A DNA stretch of 59,629 nucleotides, from assembly GCA_039679385.1 (NCBI GenBank), contig JBDKVB010000094.1, positions 1 through 59,629 of the forward strand, given 5' to 3'. Positions 3,926 through 50,435 of this stretch are shown piece after piece. This stretch comes from Armatimonadia bacterium. Its GTDB lineage: Bacteria; Armatimonadota; Zipacnadia; Zipacnadales; JABUFB01. The notes below the pieces were generated by a model. It was given only the letters and a program-made list of their open reading frames with translations, ran no database searches and was not told where the DNA came from. Position 1 is the stretch's first letter. Every line of letters starts with the position of its first letter. The position numbers and the translations under genes were made by a program.

Positions 3926-5086
3926 TCAGGGCGTGAGGGTGTAGCCGGAGCCCTGGCGGTCGTAGGTGAAGGGGCGGCCCGTGAGGGGATCCGCCGGAAC
4001 CCTTGCCAGATACTGTGGCGTCAGAGCGCTCAGTCCTGCCGGGTAGCGGTCGTCGGCAAGACGGGATAGCTCCAGCGCCGTCACGATCCGCAGCCGCTGG
4101 AGTACCTGCAGGCGTGTGTAGCGGCACTCAAGGATCTTGCTGGCAGGGATGGAGAACACCTGCTCCAGCGGGTCCCGTGGGGGCTCCAGGGCCCGCTCCA
4201 TCGCAAGGCCCTGTGGCGCCGGGAGTGCAGTCGCCCGCAGCAAGGTCTGCCACTTGTCCCAGGCGGTCTTCATCGACCCCGCCGGATCGCGGCGCGGGTC
4301 AAATCGCCACAGGGTCCGGACCGTCTGCGACCAGTCCTCCGTCGACATCGCCCGGTACGACTCCACTGCTGTCGTCAGCCCCTGCCGCAGGATCAGGTCC
4401 AGCGCCGGCACCTTCTGCAGCGCCTCCGCGGCCAGCCGATCCACCTTCACCAGTTCGTCGCGTCGGAAGGAGTGCGAGGTGATGCCGGTGGTCAGGACGG
4501 CTGCCGCAGCGCGCTCAAGGCGGACTGCATCCTTCTCGGCTTCAGGATCGGGGCAGGCGCAGAGAAAGGCCGCCAGGCGCACGGCGTCGGTGCACACTGC
4601 CAGACATTCCGCCGTGTCACCCGCCTTGAGCTCGGCACAGGCAACGACGGCCACTGCGTCGGCGAGTTCAGCCACAGCCTGCGCGTCGTACTCCCAACTG
4701 CCCATCGTCCCCGGCCAGCGCTCCGGTTCCTCGGCGAGCGCCGCTCGTAGACTCGAAAGGGCCGAGGCCAAAGACCGCGCTGTCTCCTGGAGTTGAGTTG
4801 GCGCCGGGATGATGCCACCGACGATCCCTTCAGCCTGGCGGCGGTAGTCGGAGATTTGGGGTAGCGCATCGGCGACCCTGCGGAAGGACTGCGAGAGCCC
4901 TCCATAGGCCGCGGGCGGCACCTTCACCAGTAAGTCGCTGGGCGGCAGCGGCATCTTCCCCTTGGGCGGGATCATCCGCTCGCAGCCCGTCAGCAGCGTG
5001 AGCAGGCACAGGGCGACAAGGCCCCGAAGGGCCCAGCGGGGACCTTTGGTGAGGGTGCCGATCCGGCCGCGACCGCGCTTCCGCAT
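3926..5086 (-). CDS. Lipoprotein of unknown function
   Basis: 386 residues from an ATG with AGGAGG six bases upstream. The N-terminus is basic (M-R-K-R-G-R-G-R), followed by a hydrophobic stretch and the lipobox L-L-T-G-C, so it should be lipid-anchored outside the cytoplasmic membrane. The middle is alanine- and leucine-rich and mainly helical. The C-terminus (R-Y-P-A-G-L-S-A-L ... V-P-A-D-P-L-T-G-R-P-F-T-Y) resembles the tail of many secreted proteins in Planctomycetota-like genomes, where it follows a helical body. No catalytic motif is recognised. It lies 13 bases after the preceding minus-strand gene and is probably cotranscribed with it. Confidence 0.75.
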   Translation of the reverse strand: MRKRGRGRIGTLTKGPRWALRGLVALCLLTLLTGCERMIPPKGKMPLPPSDLLVKVPPAAYGGLSQSFRRVADALPQISDYRRQAEGIVGGIIPAPTQLQETARSLASALSSLRAALAEEPERWPGTMGSWEYDAQAVAELADAVAVVACAELKAGDTAECLAVCTDAVRLAAFLCACPDPEAEKDAVRLERAAAAVLTTGITSHSFRRDELVKVDRLAAEALQKVPALDLILRQGLTTAVESYRAMSTEDWSQTVRTLWRFDPRRDPAGSMKTAWDKWQTLLRATALPAPQGLAMERALEPPRDPLEQVFSIPASKILECRYTRLQVLQRLRIVTALELSRLADDRYPAGLSALTPQYLARVPADPLTGRPFTYDRQGSGYTLTP

Positions 5087-5099
5087 CCGTTCCCTCCTC

Positions 5100-6224
5100 T
5101 CAGAGCCGCCTCCCGGGTGGGCAACCGAGTAGCAGGTCGATGCCCGCCGGTACCCGCGCGCTGAAAACCACTGTGACCTGATTGTACTGCGCCCCTGCAC
5201 TCCTGACCTGCACCGCACCCAGCGGCTGCGAAGTCGAGCAGGACAGGGTCAAGGTTCGGTCAGACTCAGCAAGCCACAGGCCGAGAGACCAGGCCTCCAT
5301 GGGCGGCAGCGCGTACTGCAAGCCCGCATCCCGGACCGTCTCGAACTGGGCCGCCCCTGGAGACAGTGCGAACTCGTCCACCCCCGACTTCGATCGCGAC
5401 GTGATCAGGCAGAGCGGCGGCGGAGGACCGTCGAGATCACCGGAATCGAGGGTCAGCCGCAGGGCGCTGTCGTCATCGCCCAGAAGTGCCGCAAACCGCA
5501 GCACGCGGCCCTTGTAGGTGGTCCGGAACTCACAGCAGGCGGCCCTCTCCCCGACGGAGGGTTTCGACCAGAACCACCGGCCTGTCCCCGACCACAGAAG
5601 GCCGAGTGGCAAGTCGCCTTCGACCAGCAAGTCCTGCCCCGTCTCTCGCGGCACCAGGGCATAGAGACACCCGATGTCCGCGATGAACTCGGCACGCAGA
5701 CGGGGGTTCTCCAGGCACAGGACCGTTGCCGCACGGGGCCCTGAGGCGAAGTTGACTACCTGCTGCCGGGAGTAGCTGCAAGCTCCGTGCGCGATGCGGA
5801 GAGGCTTGTCGACGCGAAGCCGATCGGTCCCCGTGGCCATGCTCCGCACATACAGCCTGCCGGTGATCATCCCTTGCGGTCGGGCCTCCGCGAACACCTG
5901 CAGAGCAGTGCCATGCCACTCGCCGTCACCGGTCACCGCAAGGGTGGCCGCCGGGCTTGCCGAGTAGCCGGCTCCGGCATCAGTGAGGTGCACGCCGCAG
6001 ACGAGGCTGACCGGCCCCGGGGTGTGCTTCCGTGCCCTGACGGTGACCACTGCAGGCTTCTCGGGAGTGGGGAACAAGGTGACGTCGGCGCCGACAACCT
6101 GGACCTCGACTGCGCTCTGGATCACGGAGACGAGGGTATCTGACGTAGCCGCCTCTTGGGCCCACGCTGCGGTGCAGGCGAGCGTCAGGATCGCTTTGAG
6201 CAGGAGGGTCAAGGTCGAGTTCAC
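5100..6224 (-). CDS. Secreted protein of unknown function
   Basis: 374 residues from a GTG start. The N-terminal signal peptide (hydrophobic residues 4-18, cleavage likely after A-W-A) marks it as exported. The mature part is beta-rich, with alternating hydrophobic residues and no recognised domain. No clear Shine-Dalgarno sequence precedes the GTG. It is followed after 13 bases by the lipoprotein gene, so the two probably form an operon and may work together at the cell surface. Function unknown. Confidence 0.65.
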   Translation of the reverse strand: MNSTLTLLLKAILTLACTAAWAQEAATSDTLVSVIQSAVEVQVVGADVTLFPTPEKPAVVTVRARKHTPGPVSLVCGVHLTDAGAGYSASPAATLAVTGDGEWHGTALQVFAEARPQGMITGRLYVRSMATGTDRLRVDKPLRIAHGACSYSRQQVVNFASGPRAATVLCLENPRLRAEFIADIGCLYALVPRETGQDLLVEGDLPLGLLWSGTGRWFWSKPSVGERAACCEFRTTYKGRVLRFAALLGDDDSALRLTLDSGDLDGPPPPLCLITSRSKSGVDEFALSPGAAQFETVRDAGLQYALPPMEAWSLGLWLAESDRTLTLSCSTSQPLGAVQVRSAGAQYNQVTVVFSARVPAGIDLLLGCPPGRRL

Positions 6225-6360
6225 CGTGAGGGCGTGGCTCGGCGAAAGTGATGCGGCCAGACACGGGTATTCCTGTCCCGTCGCGTCTCTTCCTGCCTGG
6301 CACAGCGCCTGAGGAGCCAGGTCAGTGGGGTGCCGTCACCCCGGCAGGCCCCGCAAGCAG

Positions 6361-6388
6361 AACGCGCCACCCCGGAGGATGGCGCGTT
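6361..6388 (-). terminator. Hairpin downstream of the FecR-domain gene
   Basis: A perfect 9-bp inverted repeat (6361-6369 with 6380-6388) with a 10-base loop, 22 bases past the stop of the FecR-domain gene on the minus strand. It separates this gene from the two-gene lipoprotein operon. Confidence 0.55.
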
Positions 6389-6410
6389 CAACACAGCCGC
6401 ACGATGGACC

Positions 6411-7295
6411 CTACCGTACGAGGGTACGTTTCTGCACAGACTCAAAGCCTTTGGCATCCACCGCGCGAACCGTGATATCCACTCGATCACTGCCTGCAGG
6501 CACCGGAACCTGGATCGCGAACTTGCCCAAGAGGTTCGGGGTGATCGTCACGCCGTTCACGGTCACTGTTGAGCCCCGCTCAGCCTTGCCGCTTACCGGG
6601 ACTGCTGTGAGCCCGACCGGCAAGGTCTCGTAAGTGGGTTCGATGAGCTCGAGGCTGGGCTTGGCGACCGAGAGTTCTCGATCCCACTGTGCGACCTCGT
6701 CAGGCTTCATCTCGGCCACCTGGTGCGACACAGCACCGGCAGCACCGGCCTCTCCGGCCCCGATGTCAACACTGCCCTGCTTATCCGACAGCGCCACACT
6801 CCCCTTCAGCACCGATACCCGGGTCGCACCGTCTGGCGTGACGGCAACGGAGAAAACCGTCCCACGGACGGCCGCAGTCGCCGTCGGAGTGCGGATCTCG
6901 AACTTCGATTGCTGTGAGAGCGCCTTCAGTACCCGAACCCACACCTGGCCGCTGTCCAGCTTGAAGAGGTAGTCCTGACTGTCGTCGGACCGGTTGACCT
7001 GGCACTTGAGAACCTGGACCGTCGTATCCGGGCCGATTCGGAGGCGTGAATCGTCGACCCAGTTCAGAGTGAGATGGCCGTCTGCCCCGGTGCGCAGGAC
7101 GTCTCCGGCCTTCACTCGCTCCGTGGTTCCCAGGGGGACGAAGCCGGGCGATCCGGCAGGCTGGACGCTGATGCTGCCGCCCGGGTCACTGACGGCGGCG
7201 ACGCGCTGGAGCACCAGTACCGACTCCAGAAGCGAGGCGCCGACGAACACCAGCGTCGCGAAAGAACAGATCAACAGCACGGCCGCTTTTCTCAT
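6411..7295 (-). CDS. FecR-domain protein with C-terminal Ig-like domain
   Basis: 294 residues from the ATG that follows a TTGAGGGA ribosome site; a GTG 21 bases upstream is less likely. One N-terminal membrane anchor (about residues 4-28) is followed by a FecR domain. Its signature pieces are V-K-A-G-D-V-L-R-T-G-A-D-G, L-R-I-G-P-D-T-T and F-E-I-R-T-P-T-A-T-A-A-V-R-G-T. A C-terminal Ig-like domain (V-S-G-K-A-E-R-G-S-T-V-T-V-N-G) resembles glucodextranase-B-type repeats. FecR domains outside siderophore systems are common in envelope proteins, and no ECF sigma factor or TonB receptor is adjacent, so iron signalling is not indicated. Confidence 0.82.
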   Translation of the reverse strand: MRKAAVLLICSFATLVFVGASLLESVLVLQRVAAVSDPGGSISVQPAGSPGFVPLGTTERVKAGDVLRTGADGHLTLNWVDDSRLRIGPDTTVQVLKCQVNRSDDSQDYLFKLDSGQVWVRVLKALSQQSKFEIRTPTATAAVRGTVFSVAVTPDGATRVSVLKGSVALSDKQGSVDIGAGEAGAAGAVSHQVAEMKPDEVAQWDRELSVAKPSLELIEPTYETLPVGLTAVPVSGKAERGSTVTVNGVTITPNLLGKFAIQVPVPAGSDRVDITVRAVDAKGFESVQKRTLVR

Positions 7296-7551
7296 GCTCA
7301 ATCCCTCAACCGCCACTGGCGGTCATAGCTTCGGCATACCACGGGCGGCCCGCAGGGCCGCTCCCCTCTCCCGCGAGGAGGTATACCCGATGGTCTGAAG
7401 CCCTAAACGCCGCGGCCTTCAGGCATCCTTGAGCACCAACAGCACTTCAGCGCGACGTCGGAATCTGCGTGGAGGTGTCCTGAGATGGGCGGGGAATAGC
7501 CCGCCATCGCACGACCAATGACGGGGCATCTTGCCCGATGGAGGCGTTTGC

Positions 7552-14105: not shown

Positions 14106-17009
14106 TTGTCTGGGAAACTCGACGCTCAGGGACTTGCCGCATCACTCAACTCCGCTGCCGCTCCACAGGTTACCGCGCTGGATCGGTTCAAGGCCGAAGT
14201 GGACTTCGCTGCCCGACTGGCCGGCACCCGTCCGGAGAAGACCGAGGAATGGGGGAGACTGCTCCAGCAGGCTGTGAGCCTCGTCGCCGAGGGGATCAAG
14301 GCCGGCAAGGGCGCCGAAGGTCTGGTCGCTGAGGCTGAGGCCCTTCTTGCGCCCCTGGGTGCCGCGGCCAAGGAGTACACCATCTTCTGCTGCGGTCATG
14401 CCCACATCGACATGAACTGGATGTGGACCTGGCCGGAGACCGTGTCGGTCACCTACGATACCTTCTCGACCATGGACAAGCTCATGGACGAGTTCCCGGA
14501 GTTCCACTTCTCCCAGAGCCAGGCCTCGGTGTACGAGCTGACCCGCAAGTACGCCCCCGAGCTGTTCGAGAAGATCAAGCAGCGCGTCCAGGCCGGTCTG
14601 TGGGACATCACTGCCAGCCAGTGGGTTGAGGGCGACAAGAACCTGGCCTCCGGCGAGATCCTCTGCCGCCATCTGCTCTACACTCGCCGCTGGTTTCTCG
14701 AGCACCTGGGAATCCCCTACGATCAGATCAAGCTGGACTGGGAGTGCGACACCTTCGGGCACTGCTGGACGCTCCCGGGTATCCTCTCCCGCGGCGGCGT
14801 GACGCGCTACTACCACCATCGCGCCAGCGGGCCTCGGCTGCGTGGCATGTCCAGCGGCGAGCTTTCGCAGGTGTACTGGTGGGAGGGCAAGGACGGCTCG
14901 CGGATACTGGCCTTCGACGACTCACCCAACGGCTACAACAACGAGATCACTCCGCGCATGGCGCACCTGCTCCTTGACCTGGAGCGCAACAGCGGGCTGC
15001 GCTGCATGCTGTGGATCTACGGCGTTGGCGATCATGGTGGTGGCCCGACCCGACGGCACCTGCGAGCGGCGCGGGACATGGTGACCTGGCCCATCTTCCC
15101 GTGCGTGAAGCTGGCGAGCACCGATGACTTCTACACAGAAGCCGAGAGGCAGATCGCGGAGCGGAACCTGCAGATCCCGGTCCACAAGGACGAGCTCAAC
15201 TTCGTCTTCGAGGGCTGCTACACGTCTGAGAGCTGCATCAAGTTCGCCAACCGCAAAGGCGAGAACGACCTCTTCGACACTGAGTTCGCAGCCCTGCTTG
15301 CCGAGAGAGCCTGCGGGGTCGCCTACCCGCAGGAGCAGCTCAACAAGTGCTGGGAACGGGCCATGTTCGTGCAGTTCCACGACATCCTGCCAGGCTCCGG
15401 CGTGCGCGAGACGGTGCAGCACGCCATGGGGCTGTTCCAGGAGAACCTGGCCAACACCGGCGTCATCCGCACTCGCAGTCTGCGCTCGCTTGCCGACAAG
15501 ATCGACACCTCGGCGCTGGCCCCTGCGAAGCCCGGCAGTGATCAGGGCCTCGGCGGCGGTGCCGGCAATGATGCCTGGTGGGGCGGCGTGTCGACTCTTG
15601 GCGCAGGCCAGAGCGGCAGCGATCCCTTCGTTGTCTACAATCCGGCCGCCTTCGAGCGCGATGAGCTGGTTCGCCTCAAGATCTGGGACCGCGAGCTTCC
15701 CGGTGGCGTGGTCGTCCGCGACAGTGCGGGCAACCTCACAGCCGGGCAGGTCGTCGACAAGGGCAACTACTGGGGTCACTCCTTCGTTACCGTGGCCTTC
15801 GTCGCCCGCCGTCTGCCCGCGCTGGGTTGGAGAGCCTACACCGTCGAGGCCGGCGAAGCGCCCGCCGACGGTGAGGGTGCTTACATCCGCGAGACCGGCC
15901 GCCCCATCTACGGGCTCGGCTATGTCAATGCGCAGCTCACCAACCCGGTCGTGATGGGCAACGAGTTCCTTGAGATGACCCTCTCTGCCAAGGAGGGTGG
16001 CATCGTTGAGCTGATGGACAAGGCCTCCGGCGTCGGCATCGCTCAGTCGATGCTGCCTCTGGGCGCCCTGCTTCGCCAGCAGGAGGCTCCCCACGGGATG
16101 ACCGCCTGGCAGCTCGGCGCGATCGTCGACGAGGTCGAGCCCCTGGCTGACGGGACGCTGCGTGTGGTCCAGGCCGGTCCGAACCTTGCGGCCGTCCAGC
16201 TCAGCGGCAAGCACAACGATTCGGACTACCGGCTGACCATCAGCCTTGCCCGCGGTTCGCGCCAGATCAACTTCGACCTCGACGTGAATTGGCTGGAACG
16301 TGGCGAGCCGCAGACGGGTGTGCCCGTCCTGAGGGCGTGCTTCCCGGTCAATGTGACCGAGGGCAAGGCCACCTTCGAGATCGCCTGTGGCTCGATCGAG
16401 CGCAAGGCCGACGGCGAAGAGGCCCCCGCACTGAACTGGGCAGACGTCACCGGAATGTCCTGGGAGGACGTGGACCAGGAGATCGGGGCCACGGTTCTGA
16501 ATGACAGCAAGTACGGTCACCGGATCAGTGAGGATACCGTACAGGTCACACTACTGCGTTCCAGCTACGATCCGGATCCCTTGCCTGAGATTGGCCGCCA
16601 CCAGATCCGCTACGCGGTCATCCCGCACATGGCGGCTCTGGATGTCCCCGAGGCCACACGGCAGGGCTTCGCCTTCAATCATCCCGTGATCACCGTCGGA
16701 ACGACCGTCCATGAGGGAGATCTCGGCGCGGAGATGGAGGGCCTTGCCGTCCTGACGCCGAAGGTAATGCTGTCGGGTGTGAAGAAAGCTGAAGACGGCA
16801 CTGGCCTGATCCTGCGCCTGTACGAGATGACCGGGGAGGCGACGAGCGCCCAGGTGCGGATCGCGCCTTGGCTGGCTGCAGCCGGCTCGCCGGCCCTTGA
16901 GACCGACCTTCTGGAGCGTGCCCTGCCGGAGAGCACGGCGAAGATGAATGGCGACGTGCTGACAGTGACCGTTCCGGCCTACGGGATCACGACGGTGCGA
17001 GTCGGCTGA
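14106..17009 (+). CDS. Alpha-mannosidase, GH38
   Basis: 967 residues, within the range of bacterial GH38 enzymes. The catalytic domain begins near residue 90 with H-A-H-I-D-M-N-W (zinc ligands H100 and D102). The nucleophile region W-E-C-D-T-F-G-H places D215 as catalytic aspartate, and G-D-H-G-G-G-P-T gives a further zinc ligand at H310. The alpha-mannosidase middle helical domain and a C-terminal beta-sandwich region follow. The enzyme releases alpha-linked mannose with retention, using a zinc ion. There is no signal peptide, so it probably acts on imported oligosaccharides in the cytoplasm. Start is TTG with GAGG nine bases upstream. Confidence 0.93.
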   Translation: MSGKLDAQGLAASLNSAAAPQVTALDRFKAEVDFAARLAGTRPEKTEEWGRLLQQAVSLVAEGIKAGKGAEGLVAEAEALLAPLGAAAKEYTIFCCGHAHIDMNWMWTWPETVSVTYDTFSTMDKLMDEFPEFHFSQSQASVYELTRKYAPELFEKIKQRVQAGLWDITASQWVEGDKNLASGEILCRHLLYTRRWFLEHLGIPYDQIKLDWECDTFGHCWTLPGILSRGGVTRYYHHRASGPRLRGMSSGELSQVYWWEGKDGSRILAFDDSPNGYNNEITPRMAHLLLDLERNSGLRCMLWIYGVGDHGGGPTRRHLRAARDMVTWPIFPCVKLASTDDFYTEAERQIAERNLQIPVHKDELNFVFEGCYTSESCIKFANRKGENDLFDTEFAALLAERACGVAYPQEQLNKCWERAMFVQFHDILPGSGVRETVQHAMGLFQENLANTGVIRTRSLRSLADKIDTSALAPAKPGSDQGLGGGAGNDAWWGGVSTLGAGQSGSDPFVVYNPAAFERDELVRLKIWDRELPGGVVVRDSAGNLTAGQVVDKGNYWGHSFVTVAFVARRLPALGWRAYTVEAGEAPADGEGAYIRETGRPIYGLGYVNAQLTNPVVMGNEFLEMTLSAKEGGIVELMDKASGVGIAQSMLPLGALLRQQEAPHGMTAWQLGAIVDEVEPLADGTLRVVQAGPNLAAVQLSGKHNDSDYRLTISLARGSRQINFDLDVNWLERGEPQTGVPVLRACFPVNVTEGKATFEIACGSIERKADGEEAPALNWADVTGMSWEDVDQEIGATVLNDSKYGHRISEDTVQVTLLRSSYDPDPLPEIGRHQIRYAVIPHMAALDVPEATRQGFAFNHPVITVGTTVHEGDLGAEMEGLAVLTPKVMLSGVKKAEDGTGLILRLYEMTGEATSAQVRIAPWLAAAGSPALETDLLERALPESTAKMNGDVLTVTVPAYGITTVRVG

Positions 17010-42706: not shown

Positions 42707-42872
42707 GAGTTCTCCGCGGTTGCCTGCCCAGGTCGCACTATCCCCTGTCGAAGACTTCGACCTCCTATCCTCGTGCTCCCCAGCCTGCGCCCTGGACAGC
42801 TCCTGTGCCCTGAAGGGTTTGCGGACCCTCGGGAGGAATTGCCCGTCGGATCGCCGCGCTACGGAGGATCAC

Positions 42873-44714
42873 GTGTCTACTATGATGGGAGTGATGTTGT
42901 TGAGCACCTTCCACCTGGTGCCCGCTCAACCGCTTCTGACGCCTGCCGCCGACTACGGTCGTTCCTACATTGCCACTCCGGGACCAGGGAACTCGCCGGC
43001 CTTCCTACTGGAGTCTCGCTGCCGCATCATCGATCCCGCGGCGAAGGTGACCCGCGACTACTACCAGTGTGCCCTGTGCAAGGCCGAGCGCACCTTTGCC
43101 TCCGAGGACCTGTTCGTGGTCCCCGGCTACGACTTTCTGCCCGTCTTCTCTGAGGGCGAGGTCGTCGTGTTCCGCCGTGGCGTCACCGCCGGCGACGGCT
43201 ACCGCGAGGTCTCCAAGCCCAAGTGGGGCGGAATGACCCCCAGGATCGTCGAGGGCAAGTACCAGGTCTGCGCGGACGCCGCGCAAGTGGTCACGGCAAC
43301 GAAGGAAGCCGGGCTGCTCGTCGGCCAGACCGAGATCCGCGATGAGGCAAGCGGGCGCATCGCGATCCTCGAGTACCCCATTAAGACCATGAACGTCGAT
43401 GTCGCCAAAGGGGTCTGGCAGAGCGACACCGGCCCGGTGCTGTTCCCCGACCTGACCGTCCCGCCGGAGGAGTGGTCGGCGAACCTGAAGCTCGCCTACC
43501 TCGCCGCCAATGCGCCGGACTGGGCCGAGTTCACCGTCGAGGAGCCCACGCCGATCGAGGTGGGGGATAAGGAGGTCGCGAGGGTCTGGCACAACTCCCG
43601 CAGCCTTCGCCTTTCCGTCCGCAACCAGATCCTGGCTCCAGCCGAGGTGCAGCTTGTGAAACCGCCGAAGGTCATCGAAGAAGGCGGGCTGCTCCGTGTT
43701 CGCCTCCTGCCTCCGAAGCCCGGCAATCCGCGCAACTCCGAGGGCGACTTCGTCCAACTGAAGGATGGACGGATACTCTTCGTCTACACACATTTCACCG
43801 GCGGTGGGGGAGACCACTCAACCGCCTACCTGGCCGGGCGCTACTCCACCGATGGCGGACGAACCTGGACCGCCGAGGACGTCACTGTGCTCGCGAACGA
43901 GGGCAAGATGAACATCATGTCGGTGTCCTTGAACCGACTGCCGAGCGGCGAGATTGCCCTCTTCTACCTGCGCAAGAACGGACTCGAGGACTGTCGCCCT
44001 TACGTCCGCTTCTCCACCGACGAGGCCCAGACCTGGAGCGACCCTATCGAGTGCATCGCGACGCCGGGCTACTACGTGGTCAACAACGATCGGGTGATCC
44101 AGCTCAAGAGCGGGCGCCTGGTCATGCCGACCGCGCTGCATCTGTACACCGATGCCCATCTGCGCCCCGGAGTGGCGATGTGCTATCTCTCGGACGACAA
44201 CGGTCGCACGTGGTACAAGAGCCAGAGCGAGTTGCACGCCCCGGCGAAGTCTGGTTCAGGCCTCCAGGAGCCCGGTGTGGTCGAGCTCAAGGACGGGCGA
44301 GTGATGATGCTGTCGCGAACCGATCAGGGCTGCCATTTCCGGTCCTACTCAAGCGACGGCGGAGTGACCTGGACCGAGGCCGAACCCACGGATATCCTTG
44401 CGCCCTGTTCTCCGGCAACCTTCAAGCGCATCCCCAGTACGGGCGACCTGCTGCTCGTGTGGAATGACCACTCGCAGGAACGCACCCTGGGCGGCAAGCG
44501 CACGCCCTTGACCGCCGCCATCTCCCACGACGACGGCGTAACCTGGGAGCATCGGAAGATCCTCGAGGACGACCCGGACGGCTGGTTCTGCTACATGGCC
44601 ATGGAGTTCGTCGGGGACAACGTGCTCCTCAGCTACTGCGCCAGCGACAAGGGGATACCTGCGCTGGCGCAGACCGGGATTGCGTTGTTTGGAGTGGACT
44701 GGCTCTACCAGTAG
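42873..44714 (+). CDS. Sialidase-like BNR/Asp-box protein
   Basis: 613 residues from a GTG with GGAGG five bases upstream. The N-terminal third is a beta-rich domain. The C-terminal two thirds form a sialidase-type propeller with at least five Asp-box variants: S-T-D-G-G-R-T-W, S-T-D-E-A-Q-T-W, S-D-D-N-G-R-T-W, S-S-D-G-G-V-T-W and S-H-D-D-G-V-T-W. Proteins of this class act on sialic acids or other glycans, and many are only annotated as exo-alpha-sialidase. The N-terminus is only weakly signal-like, so location is uncertain. It is convergent with the KaiC fusion, with a 25-base gap. Confidence 0.85.
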   Translation: MSTMMGVMLLSTFHLVPAQPLLTPAADYGRSYIATPGPGNSPAFLLESRCRIIDPAAKVTRDYYQCALCKAERTFASEDLFVVPGYDFLPVFSEGEVVVFRRGVTAGDGYREVSKPKWGGMTPRIVEGKYQVCADAAQVVTATKEAGLLVGQTEIRDEASGRIAILEYPIKTMNVDVAKGVWQSDTGPVLFPDLTVPPEEWSANLKLAYLAANAPDWAEFTVEEPTPIEVGDKEVARVWHNSRSLRLSVRNQILAPAEVQLVKPPKVIEEGGLLRVRLLPPKPGNPRNSEGDFVQLKDGRILFVYTHFTGGGGDHSTAYLAGRYSTDGGRTWTAEDVTVLANEGKMNIMSVSLNRLPSGEIALFYLRKNGLEDCRPYVRFSTDEAQTWSDPIECIATPGYYVVNNDRVIQLKSGRLVMPTALHLYTDAHLRPGVAMCYLSDDNGRTWYKSQSELHAPAKSGSGLQEPGVVELKDGRVMMLSRTDQGCHFRSYSSDGGVTWTEAEPTDILAPCSPATFKRIPSTGDLLLVWNDHSQERTLGGKRTPLTAAISHDDGVTWEHRKILEDDPDGWFCYMAMEFVGDNVLLSYCASDKGIPALAQTGIALFGVDWLYQ

Positions 44715-44739: not shown

Positions 44740-47376
44740 TCAGGCCTGTGCGAGCAGCGCCCTGGTTTCGGCCTCAATCGTGGCAAGGGCGGCTTCCGGC
44801 TCCGCCTTCCCGGTAAGGACAGCATGCAACTGGCCTTGCATCACCCGCGTGATCTTGCTGTAGTGCGGGATGTTCTCGCGGCATCGTGCATGGTCCAGAA
44901 TCGCCTGCAGGTCACGGTAGTGGGGATGGAAGGCGAGTAGCTCCTGGTCTTCGTAAACGGTCTTCAGAGTGGGGAGCGGGCCTCCGCGGAGCGCCCGCTC
45001 CTTCTGTATGTCATAGCTGGTCATGAAGCGGATGAAATCGCGGGCAGCGGAGGGTGCCAGGGCGCTGCGCGGCACTGCGTAGTGCCAGCCGCCAAGATAG
45101 GTGTAGGAGGTGTGACCCGAGGGCCCGATCGGCGCCGGTGCAACTCCCACTCGCTCCCGGATCGGCGAGTCCGGCTGCTGCGATCCCTGCAGCACGCTCG
45201 GCAGCATCCACAGGAAGACCGTGCGTCCTGCCAGGAAGTTGGCCTGCGGCTCAACGCCGCCGATGTGGTCGGTGATGCTCAGCGGGCTGATCTTGTGGAC
45301 GTAGATGCAGTCGTGCAGGAAGGTGAGAGCCTCCAGTGCCGCGGGCGAACCGATCTCCACCTCGCCTGTGTCGTCATCGAGGACTCGGCCGCCGTTGCTC
45401 CACAGGTTCACCAGGAAGCTGGTGCTCAGGCCCTCGTACAGGTACGCCGGGAACTCAAACCCCAGCAAGTCCCCGTTCCCCGGAGCGCTGCAGATCGTCT
45501 GGGCCTGGTGTACGAGTTCCTCCCAGGTAGCCGGCGGCGCGCTGAATCCGTGCTGCTCCAGGAGGTCCTTCCGGTACATCAGCACCCCGCACAGCGCGAT
45601 GGCCGGAGCGGCATAGAGATGATCTTGCGAGACCGCCGGCCACACCAGCCCGTCGAGGTGCTGCTCCCATTGCGACGCAGGCAGGACGTCATCCAGCGGA
45701 GACAGTCGGCTCGGGTCAATAACGTCGGGCATCCAGTACATGCACAGCGGCACGACGCTGAGGCTGGACCGGCGCGAGCTCAGGGCCATCGCTACCACGT
45801 CACGAGCCTCATCCGGGTTATACGGAATGTTCAGGGGCACAGGCTTGACCCGTGGGTGTAGCTGCGAGAACCGGTCCATGAGCTCCCGGTTGAGCTGTTC
45901 GTCGAACTCGGAGAAGCTGCGGACCGCCAGCTCGATGGTGGTTGCACGCGGGGTGCCGGCCATCAGTCCCTCTGTGCCTTCGAACCGCCCCCTCACCCGC
46001 ATCCCGTGCGAGGAGATTGTGAAGCGCCGAATCCCCTTGTCGTGGTCGCTGCCTCGCATCTTGAGCACCGAGACGGCCCGCTGGATCTCGCTCTCCATCT
46101 CGATGTACTTGAGCAGGATGATGCCGTCGACGATCACCGAGATGTGCTCACCGGTGATCTGCGTTTGTCCGAACACCTCCGGAACTTCTGCGATCAGCAG
46201 CGAGGTGGCTGCCGAGGCTTCGAGGCACTCGACCATGGAGTACACGGACTCGCGAAGGCTCAGGTGCTGCGAGCTGGCCATCTCCAGGTCTGTGATGCTG
46301 TCGATGACCACTCGCTTGGCGCTGGTGGCGCGCAGTTCGTTGACCAGTTCCTGGGTGAGCTTCTCCTGCCTGACCTCCAGGGGAGAGCGGTACAGGATGC
46401 TGATCATGCCCTTGTCGATGTACTCTGCCAGCGGCAGCCCATAGCCCCTCGCAAGCTCCGCGAGCTTCGTCGGCGTCTCCTCGAAGCTGACATAGACGCC
46501 CTTCTCGCCCTCCTCAGCGCCCTTGCACATGAACTGCATCGCCAGCGTTGTCTTCCCGACGCCGGCGCTTCCTGCCACGAGAGTGGAGAACCCGCAGACC
46601 AAGCCGCCTCCGAGCATGTCATCCAGGCCGGGGACACCGGTCGGCGTGCGGCAGAGACCGTGTTCCCAGGCGAGTTTGGTGCGCGAGACCGGCTGACGAC
46701 GTGGGTAGACCTTCACGCCGTTCTCGGCGAGCTCCAGCATGTGCTTCCCGGGTATGTGTGGGGCTCCACGTGACTTGAGGATCTCGACGTAACGCCGACG
46801 CTGCCCATCTGTCTCCAGGGTGTAGTGCAGACGCAGGGCGGCGTCGGCCAGGTACTCCTCGAAAGGCACGCGGTTGATGTCGACCTGCTCGAGTTCCTTG
46901 GTGATCACGCTGGTGAGACCCGCGCGACGCAGGCCGTTCATCATGCTGTAGACCTGGGCCCGCAGTTCGCTGGCACTGGCCCCGGTCTGCCCAAGGTGGG
47001 AGACACTGTCCAGCAGGAGGCGCACCGCGCCGGTCTCGGCAATGGACCGCTCGATGAGGCCGTCCACTTCCTGAAGCTGGTCGAGAAATACTTCGGGGGA
47101 GGTGCAGATGGTGCGCAGCACGCCCTTGGCCTCCAAGTCCGCCAGGTCCCAACCGAAGTTGAGGGCGTCGCGATGCATCTGCTGAGGAAACTCTTCAAAG
47201 GTGATGATGATTCCGGGCTCACCGGCGACCGCGCCGGCATAGACGAACTGGATGCCGACCGTGGTCTTGCCGGTGCCTGGTACGCCCTCAACCAGATTAC
47301 AGCTCCCTCGAAGGAAGCCGCCGGAGAGAAGCTCGTCGAGGCCGGGGATGCCGGTGGAGAGCGGGGCTGCCATCAT
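44740..47376 (-). CDS. Double-KaiC ATPase fused to a sugar-binding protein
   Basis: 878 residues. Two KaiC-type RecA-like domains occupy about 1-235 and 240-470. Walker A motifs are G-V-P-G-T-G-K-T-T (31-39) and G-S-A-G-V-G-K-T-T (269-277); paired catalytic glutamates lie at 61-62 and 299-300; Walker B aspartates at about 123 and 359. From about 478 to the end the protein is an ABC-type extracellular solute-binding domain (SBP_bac_1/8 class): L-A-V-R-S-F-S-E, V-L-M-Y-R-K-D-L-L-E, P-P-A-T-W-E-E-L, L-G-G-W-H-Y-A-V-P and G-G-P-L-P-T. No signal peptide or membrane segment occurs, so the binding domain should be cytoplasmic. The ATG overlaps the upstream regulator's stop. KaiA and KaiB are absent. 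A ligand-gated ATPase or signal integrator is the likeliest role, by inference. Confidence 0.9.
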   Translation of the reverse strand: MMAAPLSTGIPGLDELLSGGFLRGSCNLVEGVPGTGKTTVGIQFVYAGAVAGEPGIIITFEEFPQQMHRDALNFGWDLADLEAKGVLRTICTSPEVFLDQLQEVDGLIERSIAETGAVRLLLDSVSHLGQTGASASELRAQVYSMMNGLRRAGLTSVITKELEQVDINRVPFEEYLADAALRLHYTLETDGQRRRYVEILKSRGAPHIPGKHMLELAENGVKVYPRRQPVSRTKLAWEHGLCRTPTGVPGLDDMLGGGLVCGFSTLVAGSAGVGKTTLAMQFMCKGAEEGEKGVYVSFEETPTKLAELARGYGLPLAEYIDKGMISILYRSPLEVRQEKLTQELVNELRATSAKRVVIDSITDLEMASSQHLSLRESVYSMVECLEASAATSLLIAEVPEVFGQTQITGEHISVIVDGIILLKYIEMESEIQRAVSVLKMRGSDHDKGIRRFTISSHGMRVRGRFEGTEGLMAGTPRATTIELAVRSFSEFDEQLNRELMDRFSQLHPRVKPVPLNIPYNPDEARDVVAMALSSRRSSLSVVPLCMYWMPDVIDPSRLSPLDDVLPASQWEQHLDGLVWPAVSQDHLYAAPAIALCGVLMYRKDLLEQHGFSAPPATWEELVHQAQTICSAPGNGDLLGFEFPAYLYEGLSTSFLVNLWSNGGRVLDDDTGEVEIGSPAALEALTFLHDCIYVHKISPLSITDHIGGVEPQANFLAGRTVFLWMLPSVLQGSQQPDSPIRERVGVAPAPIGPSGHTSYTYLGGWHYAVPRSALAPSAARDFIRFMTSYDIQKERALRGGPLPTLKTVYEDQELLAFHPHYRDLQAILDHARCRENIPHYSKITRVMQGQLHAVLTGKAEPEAALATIEAETRALLAQA

Positions 47377-47765
47377 GGGTTGTCACCCCCGGTGGCCGGC
47401 GGCTGCACCTGTGTGGCCCGTTCCTCATGCTGAATGCTGATGAGCAGCCGGACGATTTCCTTGCGCGAGGTGGGGTCGTCCAGGTACGCCTCGCTGACCA
47501 TGCACAGAAGGTCCCAGATGTCGGGGTCTTTGGCGAGGGCATAGCAGGTATATCGGCCCTCGCCGCGGGTGTGGCGCTCCACGATACCGCGCTTGGCGAA
47601 TCGCTCCAGTGCGGGGCCTACCTCGTCAACGGCGCGGTGCGTACGCAGAGCAATACCCCGGGGCGTGTCAAAAGCGCTCGGGTTGGCCTGGAAGAACAGG
47701 GCGACGTCCAGGCCCACGATGCTCCGAGCGGACGTGGCGATGAAGTCGCGTATTCTGTCGTCCAT
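47373..47765 (-). CDS. Winged-helix DNA-binding protein
   Basis: 130 residues from an ATG with a GGGGGG ribosome site eight bases upstream. Residues 17-75 fit a winged helix: V-A-L-F-F-Q-A-N-P-S-A-F-D-T-P, V-G-P-A-L-E-R-F-A-K-R-G-I-V-E as recognition region and a R-G-E-G-R-Y-T-C-Y-A-L wing. The C-terminal part is helical (dimer or partner contact). Its stop overlaps the KaiC fusion start, so the two are made together. It may be the output or local regulator of the fusion. Confidence 0.72.
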   Translation of the reverse strand: MDDRIRDFIATSARSIVGLDVALFFQANPSAFDTPRGIALRTHRAVDEVGPALERFAKRGIVERHTRGEGRYTCYALAKDPDIWDLLCMVSEAYLDDPTSRKEIVRLLISIQHEERATQVQPPATGGDNP

Positions 47766-47866: not shown

Positions 47867-48322
47867 GGATTGTCGCGCCTGTCCCAGAGTAGTACCGCCC
47901 GGTCCTCAGCTCAGGGCCGACTGACGTCTCCCGATTCGCGAGTCGGCGAAAGCGGGTGTTGTGAAGAGCAAACGTTGATTTGGAACAGAGTGTAACTTTA
48001 CCTTTATGCCAATATAATGTAGTATAAGACTATTCGACCGATATCAGGAAGGCGCAAGCACTGTGGACCATATCAGGGCCTGCAAACCAGGCGTGCTGCT
48101 GGCCGACAAGCGAGAAGCCGGCTCTTTGGCCGCCGTGACGGTGGTCCTGGCGCGGGGCTGGTCTGGCCGGTTGGCCGAGGACGGCTTGGCCTTGACCCTT
48201 CGGCTCTCGCTCTGTTTGTCAGCTCTGATCTGGGCTTGTGTCTCCTGGCATTTTGGTCGAACTTCGAGTACAATACAATGGTACGGAAAATCATCGTCTC
48301 ACTGGACCGGCCACACCAGCCC
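47867..48322. other. Divergent intergenic region with AT-rich core
   Basis: About 450 bases between divergent units. An AT-rich block at 47990-48040 (including TATAAT at 48013-48018) stands out from the GC-rich surroundings. A GTG-initiated frame begins at 48063 after AGGAAGG but overlaps the next gene by about 160 bases in another frame and has no recognisable domain, so it is not called as a gene. Confidence 0.45.
48245..48274 (+). promoter_or_regulatory. Possible promoter for the QatB/QatC-like pair
   Basis: CTGGCA at 48245-48250, an 18-base spacer and TACAAT at 48269-48274. A start near 48281 would exclude the upstream ATG at 48278 and support the ATG at 48323 as the real start. Confidence 0.4.
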
Positions 48323-49075
48323 ATGGGTACGTCTACCGCGCAGCGCTCGCCACGGTCTCCTGAATGGGAGAGCGTGCGCGAGCTATACCGAGAAGGAGTG
48401 CGAGACGCTTCGGAGATCTCCCGAAGAGTGTCTCGTGCCCTCGCCCCTCCCACCCGCCTTCAGATGCAGGGGCCGGGCGTTGTGACGTGCCTGGACACCT
48501 TGCTTCAGGGAGCCCAAGAGGTGGGAGGAGGTCCTGCACAGGGCCTCCTGACGGGTGCCGGGTCCCTGCTGGAGGTCGCGGCGAGGCTGCGCACCGAAGC
48601 GGAGCGAAGGCTGGCCACCAGCGGAAGGGGGTCCAGGTTCAGTGACCTCGCCCTCGACGCCCTGGGCAGTTCCGTGATGGGGCTCGCGCTTCAGGCACCG
48701 GGGACGATGGACCTGCAGACGCTGAGTGCGCTGTCGCCGAGCGTGCTGGGGAGCTACCGCGAGTCTGGGCGGCTCTCCGAGCTGGCCTCCGAGTTCGTGG
48801 GATGGGACCTCGACCGATGCTTCCGCTATCTCGTAACGCGCGACCTGTCTGAGTACGTGGGGACCAGTGCGATCCCCACCGTTCTTGAGGCACGGAAGGT
48901 CGCTGACGCCGTCGGTGCTCACTGCCGCCGTGTAGCTTCACAGATCACACCTGCACTGCACGAAGACCGGTTGCTGGAACTGGAGGGCCAAGCCCCGCCG
49001 GAGCGCGTTCAGCGGCTGGCAGAGCCCTTCAATGAGATGTTGGACGCTGGCCTGAGCAGTATCGCCGGGAGGTAG
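48323..49075 (+). CDS. QatB-like protein
   Basis: 250 residues from the ATG that gives M-G-T-S-T-A at the N-terminus. QatB proteins of the QatABCD anti-phage system, as I remember them, start M-G-T-S followed by a Pro/Ser/Gly-rich stretch. Here the next residues (Q-R-S-P-R-S-P-E-W) fit that style. The body is helical and otherwise featureless (L-L-Q-G-A-Q-E-V-G-G-G, L-A-S-E-F-V-G-W-D-L). The ribosome site is weak. It is followed after four bases by a QueC-like gene, the normal qatB-qatC order. Assignment rests on N-terminus and neighbour, not on a search. Confidence 0.6.
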   Translation: MGTSTAQRSPRSPEWESVRELYREGVRDASEISRRVSRALAPPTRLQMQGPGVVTCLDTLLQGAQEVGGGPAQGLLTGAGSLLEVAARLRTEAERRLATSGRGSRFSDLALDALGSSVMGLALQAPGTMDLQTLSALSPSVLGSYRESGRLSELASEFVGWDLDRCFRYLVTRDLSEYVGTSAIPTVLEARKVADAVGAHCRRVASQITPALHEDRLLELEGQAPPERVQRLAEPFNEMLDAGLSSIAGR

Positions 49076-49079
49076 CTGT

Positions 49080-50435
49080 TTGGCCGCACGTTTCGTTGTC
49101 GCTCACGGGATGCCGGGGGGCCCCGTGCCGGACGCCTCAGAGGACAACAGCGCCCTGTGGATGCTGGACTGGACCTCTGATCGTCGCAACGCGATCGCTG
49201 ACGTCACTGGGCTACCAGGCTCGGCGCCGAGTGCGAAGTCACCACTCCTCGCTGACCTGATGGACATAGTGGCGGCCGCCTACTTTGCCGACGTCGCCTC
49301 GCCGCGCGGACGGCTTGAGGAGTGGGTCCGCGACCTCGAGATCGAGGTGCCGGTCAGAGACCCGGGGTTCTGGCGTAGCGTCAACGGACTCCTGTCCCAC
49401 CTGCTGTACACCCTCACCCGCGACAATATCCGCCTCACCTTTCCACCACATTCCTCCGTGGAGCAGGCGGAGCCGCCCACAGCCGCCACTCCGGAGGTGG
49501 ACGCCGACTGTGTCTCTCTCCTCTCTGGTGGTCTGGACTCCATGGCGGGCGCCGCGATGTTGCTGCACACCGGCCGTCGTCCTCTCCTGATAAGCCATGT
49601 CTCCGGCAACCCCACAGTCGAGTCCGCACAGCGCCGCGTGGTATCGCATCTCAGCAAGCTGGGGGAGTGCGCCCACGCCGTTGCCCGAGTCTTGCCCGGC
49701 GCCCATGGACACCAGCCCTTCGCCTATCCGCCCCCTGAGATGAGGGAGCCGTCGCGACGGGCGCGCTCGCTGCTGTTCATGACCCTTGGCGTCGTTGCAG
49801 CCTGTCGCGCCGGTGTCAGCGATGTCTACCTGTGCGAGAACGGGATCCTGACGGCAGCCTTGCCCTTGACGCCTGCCCGAAGCGGGAGCCTGTCGACACG
49901 AAGCACTCACCCGATGGTGCTCAAGCTGTTCAGCGAATTGCTCGAACTAGCTGACATCCCGTGTCAGGTTGTTAACCCCTTCCTGTACCAGACTAAGGGG
50001 GAGGTAATCCGTACCTTCCTGCGTCCCCTGCTGCGGCCCGACGAGATCGCCGGCTCGGTTTCCTGCTGGTCTGCGGGCCGCCAGAACCGGCCCTGTGGCG
50101 GGTGCATCCCCTGTCTGCTCCGCCGCATCTCCATGCTCTCTGCAGGCCTTCCCGACGAAGCCTTCATGATGGACCTTCTCGCGACGCCGGAGCAGTACCG
50201 GGGCACCGACGCCTTCGGGAATCTCGTCGACCTCCTGACCCAGGCCGGAACTCTCCTGACACAGACGGAGTTCGAGCTGCTCCTCGACTACCCGCAACTC
50301 CTGGATATGGAGGCGGCCGACGTCAGCGTGCACGACGTCATCAGGACACTCAAGCGACACGCCAGCGAGGTCTACCACGTGCTCCAGACCCACTTCCCTG
50401 CTGCGTACCGGCTTATGGCCGGGCTGATGCCTTGA
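49080..50435 (+). CDS. QatC-like (QueC-type) PP-loop enzyme
   Basis: 451 residues, much longer than QueC (about 230). Start is TTG, eight bases after GGGAGG inside the end of the upstream gene. The PP-loop S-G-G-L-D-S lies at 149-154 and the QueC-type zinc site is C329-x9-C339-G-G-C342-x2-C345-x2-R. QueC turns carboxy-deazaguanine into preQ0 with ATP; QueC-like enzymes in defence loci have been reported to attach deazaguanine to partner proteins. The N-terminal 140 residues are extra, as in QatC. Queuosine genes are absent nearby, which favours a defence role. Confidence 0.75.

Follow-up and report, generated by a model that had tools for sequence, protein, structure and literature searches.

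The inputs and targets of non-clock KaiC proteins are largely open, and a gene that joins a KaiC to a solute-binding protein (SBP) raises the question of what a transporter binding protein might do at the end of a cytoplasmic ATPase. The gene lies on a contig of an Armatimonadia bacterium (JBDKVB010000094.1, assembly GCA_039679385.1), which was analysed over its 59,629 nucleotides (hereafter the window). The original prediction held that the binding domain may sense an internal sugar or oligosaccharide and gate the ATPase or autokinase activity of the KaiC, all within one protein.

The gene (44740–47376, minus strand) is a single unbroken open reading frame of 878 codons that encodes an 878-residue protein. 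Residues 1–470 (45967–47376, minus strand; CI approximately 1–230 and CII approximately 240–465) account for two stretches matched by the Pfam KaiC family (PF06745; E = 2.2e-105). Residues 478–878 (44743–45945, minus strand) contain matches to SBP_bac_1 (PF01547; residues 497–791, E = 1.7e-16) and SBP_bac_8 (PF13416; residues 549–812, E = 9.7e-17), with scores of 62.1 and 61.5 bits that pass the Pfam cut-offs of 27 and 26. The profile of the fusion family aligns with solved KaiC over positions 3–477 (E = 1e-116) and with the maltose-binding protein MalE3 over positions 497–872 (E = 3.4e-76). In the AlphaFold model of the complete protein (mean pLDDT of 77.7, pTM of 0.48), residues 1–470 superpose on KaiC (Z of 36–41) and residues 478–878 superpose on MalE3, TtαGBP and TMBP (Z of 37–39 over 373–386 residues), the two-lobed SBP fold spanning the full length of its half. 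The joint is formed by residues 471–477 (45946–45966, minus strand; pLDDT below 50). The low model confidence of the linker (approximately residues 466–493) means that the relative arrangement of the two halves is not fixed by the model. The domain searches that had been proposed for residues 1–470 and 478–878 thus returned KaiC and SBP_bac_1/8, respectively, and the SBP behind KaiC is indeed in frame and full length.

The protein opens directly with the KaiC fold and no signal peptide was seen by inspection. It also contains no transmembrane-like segment (the highest 19-residue Kyte–Doolittle mean is 1.48), and on this ground the idea that its SBP half is covertly exported was rejected. No permease of the BPD_transp_1 family (PF00528) is encoded on the contig spanned by the window, and 14 matches to this family are found elsewhere in the same genome. 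The predicted absence of a signal peptide and, on this contig, of an accompanying permease was therefore confirmed.

The SBP half descends from the trehalose/maltose subfamily. Its nearest solved relatives are MalE3 (6dtq; phmmer E = 2.3e-56), TMBP (1eu8) and the Thermus α-glycoside-binding protein TtαGBP (6j9w), with which it shares 25–32% identity. The pocket was mapped onto TtαGBP using the 22 family sequences that are long enough to align over the SBP; the free-standing SBPs of the same genomes belong to other subfamilies and are a poor pocket control, so the three solved relatives were used instead. D118, W287, R356 and R49 of TtαGBP are positions that were mutated by its authors (structure entry titles). 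The W287 and R356 equivalents (Trp764 and Arg833 in the window protein) are kept in all 22 sequences, and the YEG motif likewise retains its Tyr and Glu in every one. Three positions common to the closest solved trehalose/maltose binders are replaced across the fusion family: the D70 equivalent is Cys in 22 of 22, the D118 equivalent is Leu, Val, Thr or Ala throughout and the W248 equivalent is Leu in 21 of 22. New invariant residues (Asn520, Pro521, Asp522, Cys545 and Tyr547) have appeared, two of which adjoin the lost D70 position. Trehalose binding by LpqY requires Trp259, and Asp80 of that protein, the stated D70 equivalent, affects stability (PMC7949145); we tentatively equate LpqY Trp259 with TtαGBP W248 on the basis of a shared Asn-Trp motif. 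The loss of the D70, D118 and W248 equivalents suggests that the ligand is probably not trehalose, maltose or another plain α-glucoside. Because some cleft residues are kept and others have given way to new invariant residues, the pocket appears to be changed but living rather than dead.

The main rival to a changed pocket is a total loss of binding, in which case the SBP would serve as a scaffold or docking module on the KaiC hexamer for the winged-helix protein described below, a glycosidase or a transporter part. The family-wide loss of three sugar-holding positions, one of them equated with a tryptophan that LpqY requires, would fit such a role, and the many family-specific invariant residues could form a protein surface. 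However, docking needs no pocket residues, and all 22 sequences retain the equivalents of W287 and R356 together with the YEG motif; we therefore regard a scaffold as unlikely.

The prediction of a one-protein device has to give way to a two-gene module. A gene for a 130-residue protein (47373–47765, minus strand) lies directly upstream and overlaps the start of the fusion gene by four bases (ATGA). Its homologue precedes the fusion in every locus with upstream sequence, mostly in overlapping frames, and also precedes the one SBP-less member of the family (G010); at one locus (L060) only two upstream bases are available and the partner position is not covered. The partner protein of the window matches no Pfam family. 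Its AlphaFold model (pLDDT of 94.3) is a winged helix followed by two C-terminal helices, the nearest folds being ArsR/MarR-type regulators (Z of 9–10, Foldseek E = 6e-4), and the partner is thus predicted to be a regulator of the DNA-binding type. No operator motif was seen when the upstream regions were inspected by eye. Weaker homologues of the partner precede SBP-free KaiCs in other Armatimonadota (HMM E of 8e-12 to 7e-3), which suggests that the winged-helix/KaiC pair is probably older and that the SBP was added to it later. The pair is kept without an SBP in G010, and the SBP is therefore dispensable for the core function.

The conserved gene pair suggests that the two products may touch. 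This link comes from gene order, and ligand sensing could be real and have an output other than transcription, for example an enzyme or a transporter ATPase, with the winged-helix protein regulating only the operon. We consider this improbable, somewhat more so than a scaffold, as the winged-helix/KaiC order predates the SBP fusion and is seen with SBP-free KaiCs, which suggests joint work.

In 12 loci (families f4 and f6) the gene immediately upstream of the pair is divergent and encodes a GH2 glycosidase of the β-galactosidase/β-glucuronidase type, which looks cytoplasmic, with no signal peptide seen. The start-to-start gap between the GH2 gene and the pair is approximately 200–260 bases where it was measured (L044, L050 and L054), and in a thirteenth locus the GH2 gene is 4 kb away. 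This link fits the carbohydrate theme and supports it, although it is not universal: the window's own family has no adjacent GH2, and a QatC-like gene occupies that side. The latter (49080–50435, plus strand) belongs to the QueC family and matches NCBIfam QatC with E = 1.8e-63, below the cut-off, and PADLOC QatC with E = 4e-58. It is adjoined by an open reading frame of 279 residues with no Pfam match (48236–49075, plus strand). In three loci of the same family (L039–L041) a QatC homologue stands beside an open reading frame of 442–461 residues, which in L039 contains a Peptidase_S24 domain. On the other side, a BNR-repeat sialidase-like protein (42720–44714, plus strand; BNR_2 E = 3.9e-35) is encoded convergently with the fusion gene.

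The active site of the KaiC half is complete in the window protein, with Walker A Lys/Thr at 37/38 and 275/276, catalytic Glu at 61 (CI) and 299/300 (CII), Walker B Asp at 123 and 359, and Lys/Arg-finger equivalents at 201/203 and 439/441. The Walker A Lys/Thr, the first CI Glu, the Walker B Asp and the finger equivalents are conserved across the family. The second CI Glu is present in the window protein and is Gln in 15 of 22 members, while the CII pair is kept, its first Glu being Gln in two members. The claim of two complete KaiC domains with Walker motifs and glutamate pairs thus held for the window protein. With KaiC residue numbers assigned to the family by alignment, every sequence has Ser at the equivalent of Ser431 (Ser413), and 22 of 23 have Thr or Ser at that of Thr426. 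At the Thr432 position all 23 have Val or Ile, and only half of the Ser431/Thr432 autophosphorylation pair is therefore present. With the serine invariant but the threonine missing, the proposed autokinase activity could occur only in a modified form.

The clock-KaiC cut-offs of NCBIfam are not reached (259 bits against 546 for TIGR02655 and 347 bits against 408 for NF006799), and no match to KaiB (PF07689) was found in the window genome, which is 96.6% complete. By fold and active site the N-terminal half is a KaiC, but it is not the clock protein; its most likely assembly, judged from motifs and fold, is a double-ring hexamer whose ATP sites are intact. A timer, in which metabolic state would feed through the SBP into a KaiC clock or hourglass, would be compatible with the fold and with the conserved Ser431 equivalent, but is very improbable given the lack of KaiB, a Thr432 equivalent that is never Thr or Ser and the sub-threshold clock scores.

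Several other KaiC genes were observed in the genomes compared. Two fusion-bearing genomes, G017 and G020, also have a KaiBC pair, in which a KaiB homologue stands immediately behind a different, SBP-free KaiC (G017:C243:1121-2833 and G020:C24:8417-10145). Near the fusion of L056 (G042), a second KaiC (14918–16666, plus strand) has at its end a segment similar to a HisKA phosphoacceptor domain (E = 2e-4, below the cut-off), which is another C-terminal addition to KaiC. A KaiC frame in L069 (G076; 4957–7335, plus strand) has approximately 310 extra N-terminal residues with no Pfam match and an unconfirmed start, and a KaiC homologue at G103:C446:3616-5013 has one in-frame TGA and adjoins a second KaiC frame.

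The search for the same fusion elsewhere found it, at 50–67% identity, in another 21 genomes from this order and class; the relatives belong to the window's family and order, with one genome from another family of the class. A scan of genome contigs added one full-length record, which agrees with the G001 contig in length and identity and probably represents the same genome. Including the window and the SBP-less G010, the gene is present in 24 genomes, and 23 sequences hold at least part of the SBP half. Four copies (G011, G027, G004 and G023) end at contig ends, and for G011 the SBP end was found at the opposite end of the same contig record. No fusion was found outside this class among 291 Armatimonadota genomes, and the relatives on plasmids were KaiC halves only, none being full length. 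Within the phylum, an 808-residue frame (L072) was rejected as a further SBP fusion, as its N-terminal 430 residues have no Pfam match and probably reflect a too-early start. In a tree of the KaiC half the fusion family forms one group whose subgroups match taxonomic families, which gives a single origin and one later loss of the SBP. The loss is that of G010 (L059), in which KaiC stops just past the linker with no SBP sequence within the 6 kb read downstream, and which is sister to the fused G027 (support 100/100). Among close pairs dN/dS is 0.04–0.20 for the KaiC half and 0.03–0.25 for the SBP half, and the identities of the two halves vary in parallel; these low values indicate that selection keeps both. 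An assembly or sequencing artefact fusing two genes, which might be suspected from metagenome-type assemblies limited to one class, can be dismissed, because the same joint recurs in 21 other genomes, both halves are under selection and the partner gene is conserved; a frameshift or assembly join between residues 470 and 480 is likewise excluded.

The position of the joint bears on how the SBP might act. The alignment of the model with KaiC runs to residues 470–475, corresponding to 488–500 of KaiC, and the SBP starts at residue 478. KaiC residues 488–497 form the A-loop, a switch that KaiA keeps in its exposed state and thereby stimulates the kinase (PMC6378743), and in Rhodobacter KaiC a C-terminal extension beside the A-loop replaces KaiA (PMC10076222). 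The SBP thus begins right past the A-loop equivalent and fills the place of the KaiA-binding tail. The sensor reading gains strength from this attachment at the A-loop end of CII, from which KaiC is known to be controlled.

On balance, we favour the interpretation that the fusion is a cytoplasmic ligand-responsive regulatory ATPase, a KaiC hexamer acting through its winged-helix partner. One SBP would hang off each CII subunit in the position of the A-loop and C-terminal tail of cyanobacterial KaiC, through which kinase and nucleotide-exchange activity are set by KaiA or, in Rhodobacter KaiC, by a C-terminal coiled coil. Closure of the SBP on an internal metabolite, carbohydrate-like but other than the standard trehalose or maltose ligand, would shift the A-loop and alter ATPase turnover or Ser413 phosphorylation. 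The output would pass to the winged-helix protein and so to transcription control, plausible targets being its own operon and, where it adjoins, the divergent GH2 gene. This interpretation draws on the retention of the fusion with its SBP in 22 genomes from a single origin under similar purifying selection on both halves, on the conserved ATPase motifs and Ser431 equivalent, on the SBP at the A-loop with a partly kept pocket, on the conserved upstream gene with its confident winged-helix fold and the divergent GH2 in 12 loci, and on the precedent of SBP-type cytoplasmic sensor domains in SgrR and DsvR. Against it stand the three lost sugar-holding positions, the SBP-less G010, the lack of a GH2 beside the window copy and the limitation of the SBP gain to one class. 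Of the original prediction, a ligand sensor that gates KaiC is still the best reading, backed by the attachment at the A-loop, but the replaced pocket positions make a sugar uncertain as its ligand.

In this group of uncultured Armatimonadota the fusion probably serves as an intracellular nutrient sensor of a kind not described before. It carries its input domain in the same chain, standard screens can find the ligands of this class of domain, and the gene for the likely output protein lies alongside, so that input, ATPase and output of a KaiC could be tested with two purified proteins. We suggest more tentatively, as a possibility that may well not hold, that a transporter-derived binding protein was captured as the regulatory tail of a KaiC hexamer, where it stands in for KaiA and lets a metabolite inside the cell set a clock-type ATPase acting on a dedicated winged-helix regulator, as a new kind of prokaryotic intracellular receptor. 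If true, it would offer a clear example of a binding protein taken from a transporter and put to use as a receptor in the cytoplasm, at the known control point of KaiC.

Non-clock KaiC-like ATPases of Archaea have reportedly been proposed as signal transduction hubs (by Makarova, Galperin and Koonin in 2017, known to us by citation), and the present fusion resembles that proposal in being a non-clock KaiC-like ATPase in a signalling role. The literature searched yielded no fusion of KaiC to a solute-binding domain; SBP-type cytoplasmic sensing and C-terminal control of KaiC each have a precedent, and their union was not seen there. The CI–CII fold, ATP-site residues and Ser431 equivalent are common to the fusion and to the KaiCs of S. 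elongatus and Rhodobacter sphaeroides (8dba), and the latter is also alike in its control through a C-terminal extension beside the A-loop, there a coiled coil (PMC10076222). Unlike these double-domain KaiCs, the fusion has a 400-residue C-terminal SBP and no KaiA-binding tail or coiled coil, has Val or Ile for Thr432, comes from a genome without KaiB and is paired with a winged-helix gene. With TMBP, MalE3 and TtαGBP the SBP half shares the full fold, the W287 and R356 equivalents and the YEG motif, whereas it stands behind KaiC with neither signal peptide nor permease and has D70, D118 and W248 replaced. In SgrR and DsvR (HTH and SBP_bac_5) a binding-protein domain is a cytoplasmic sensor with a DNA-binding output (PMC7786190, PMC13060122); these proteins carry the DNA-binding domain in the same chain and have no ATPase, whereas the fusion combines an SBP of a different family with an ATPase.
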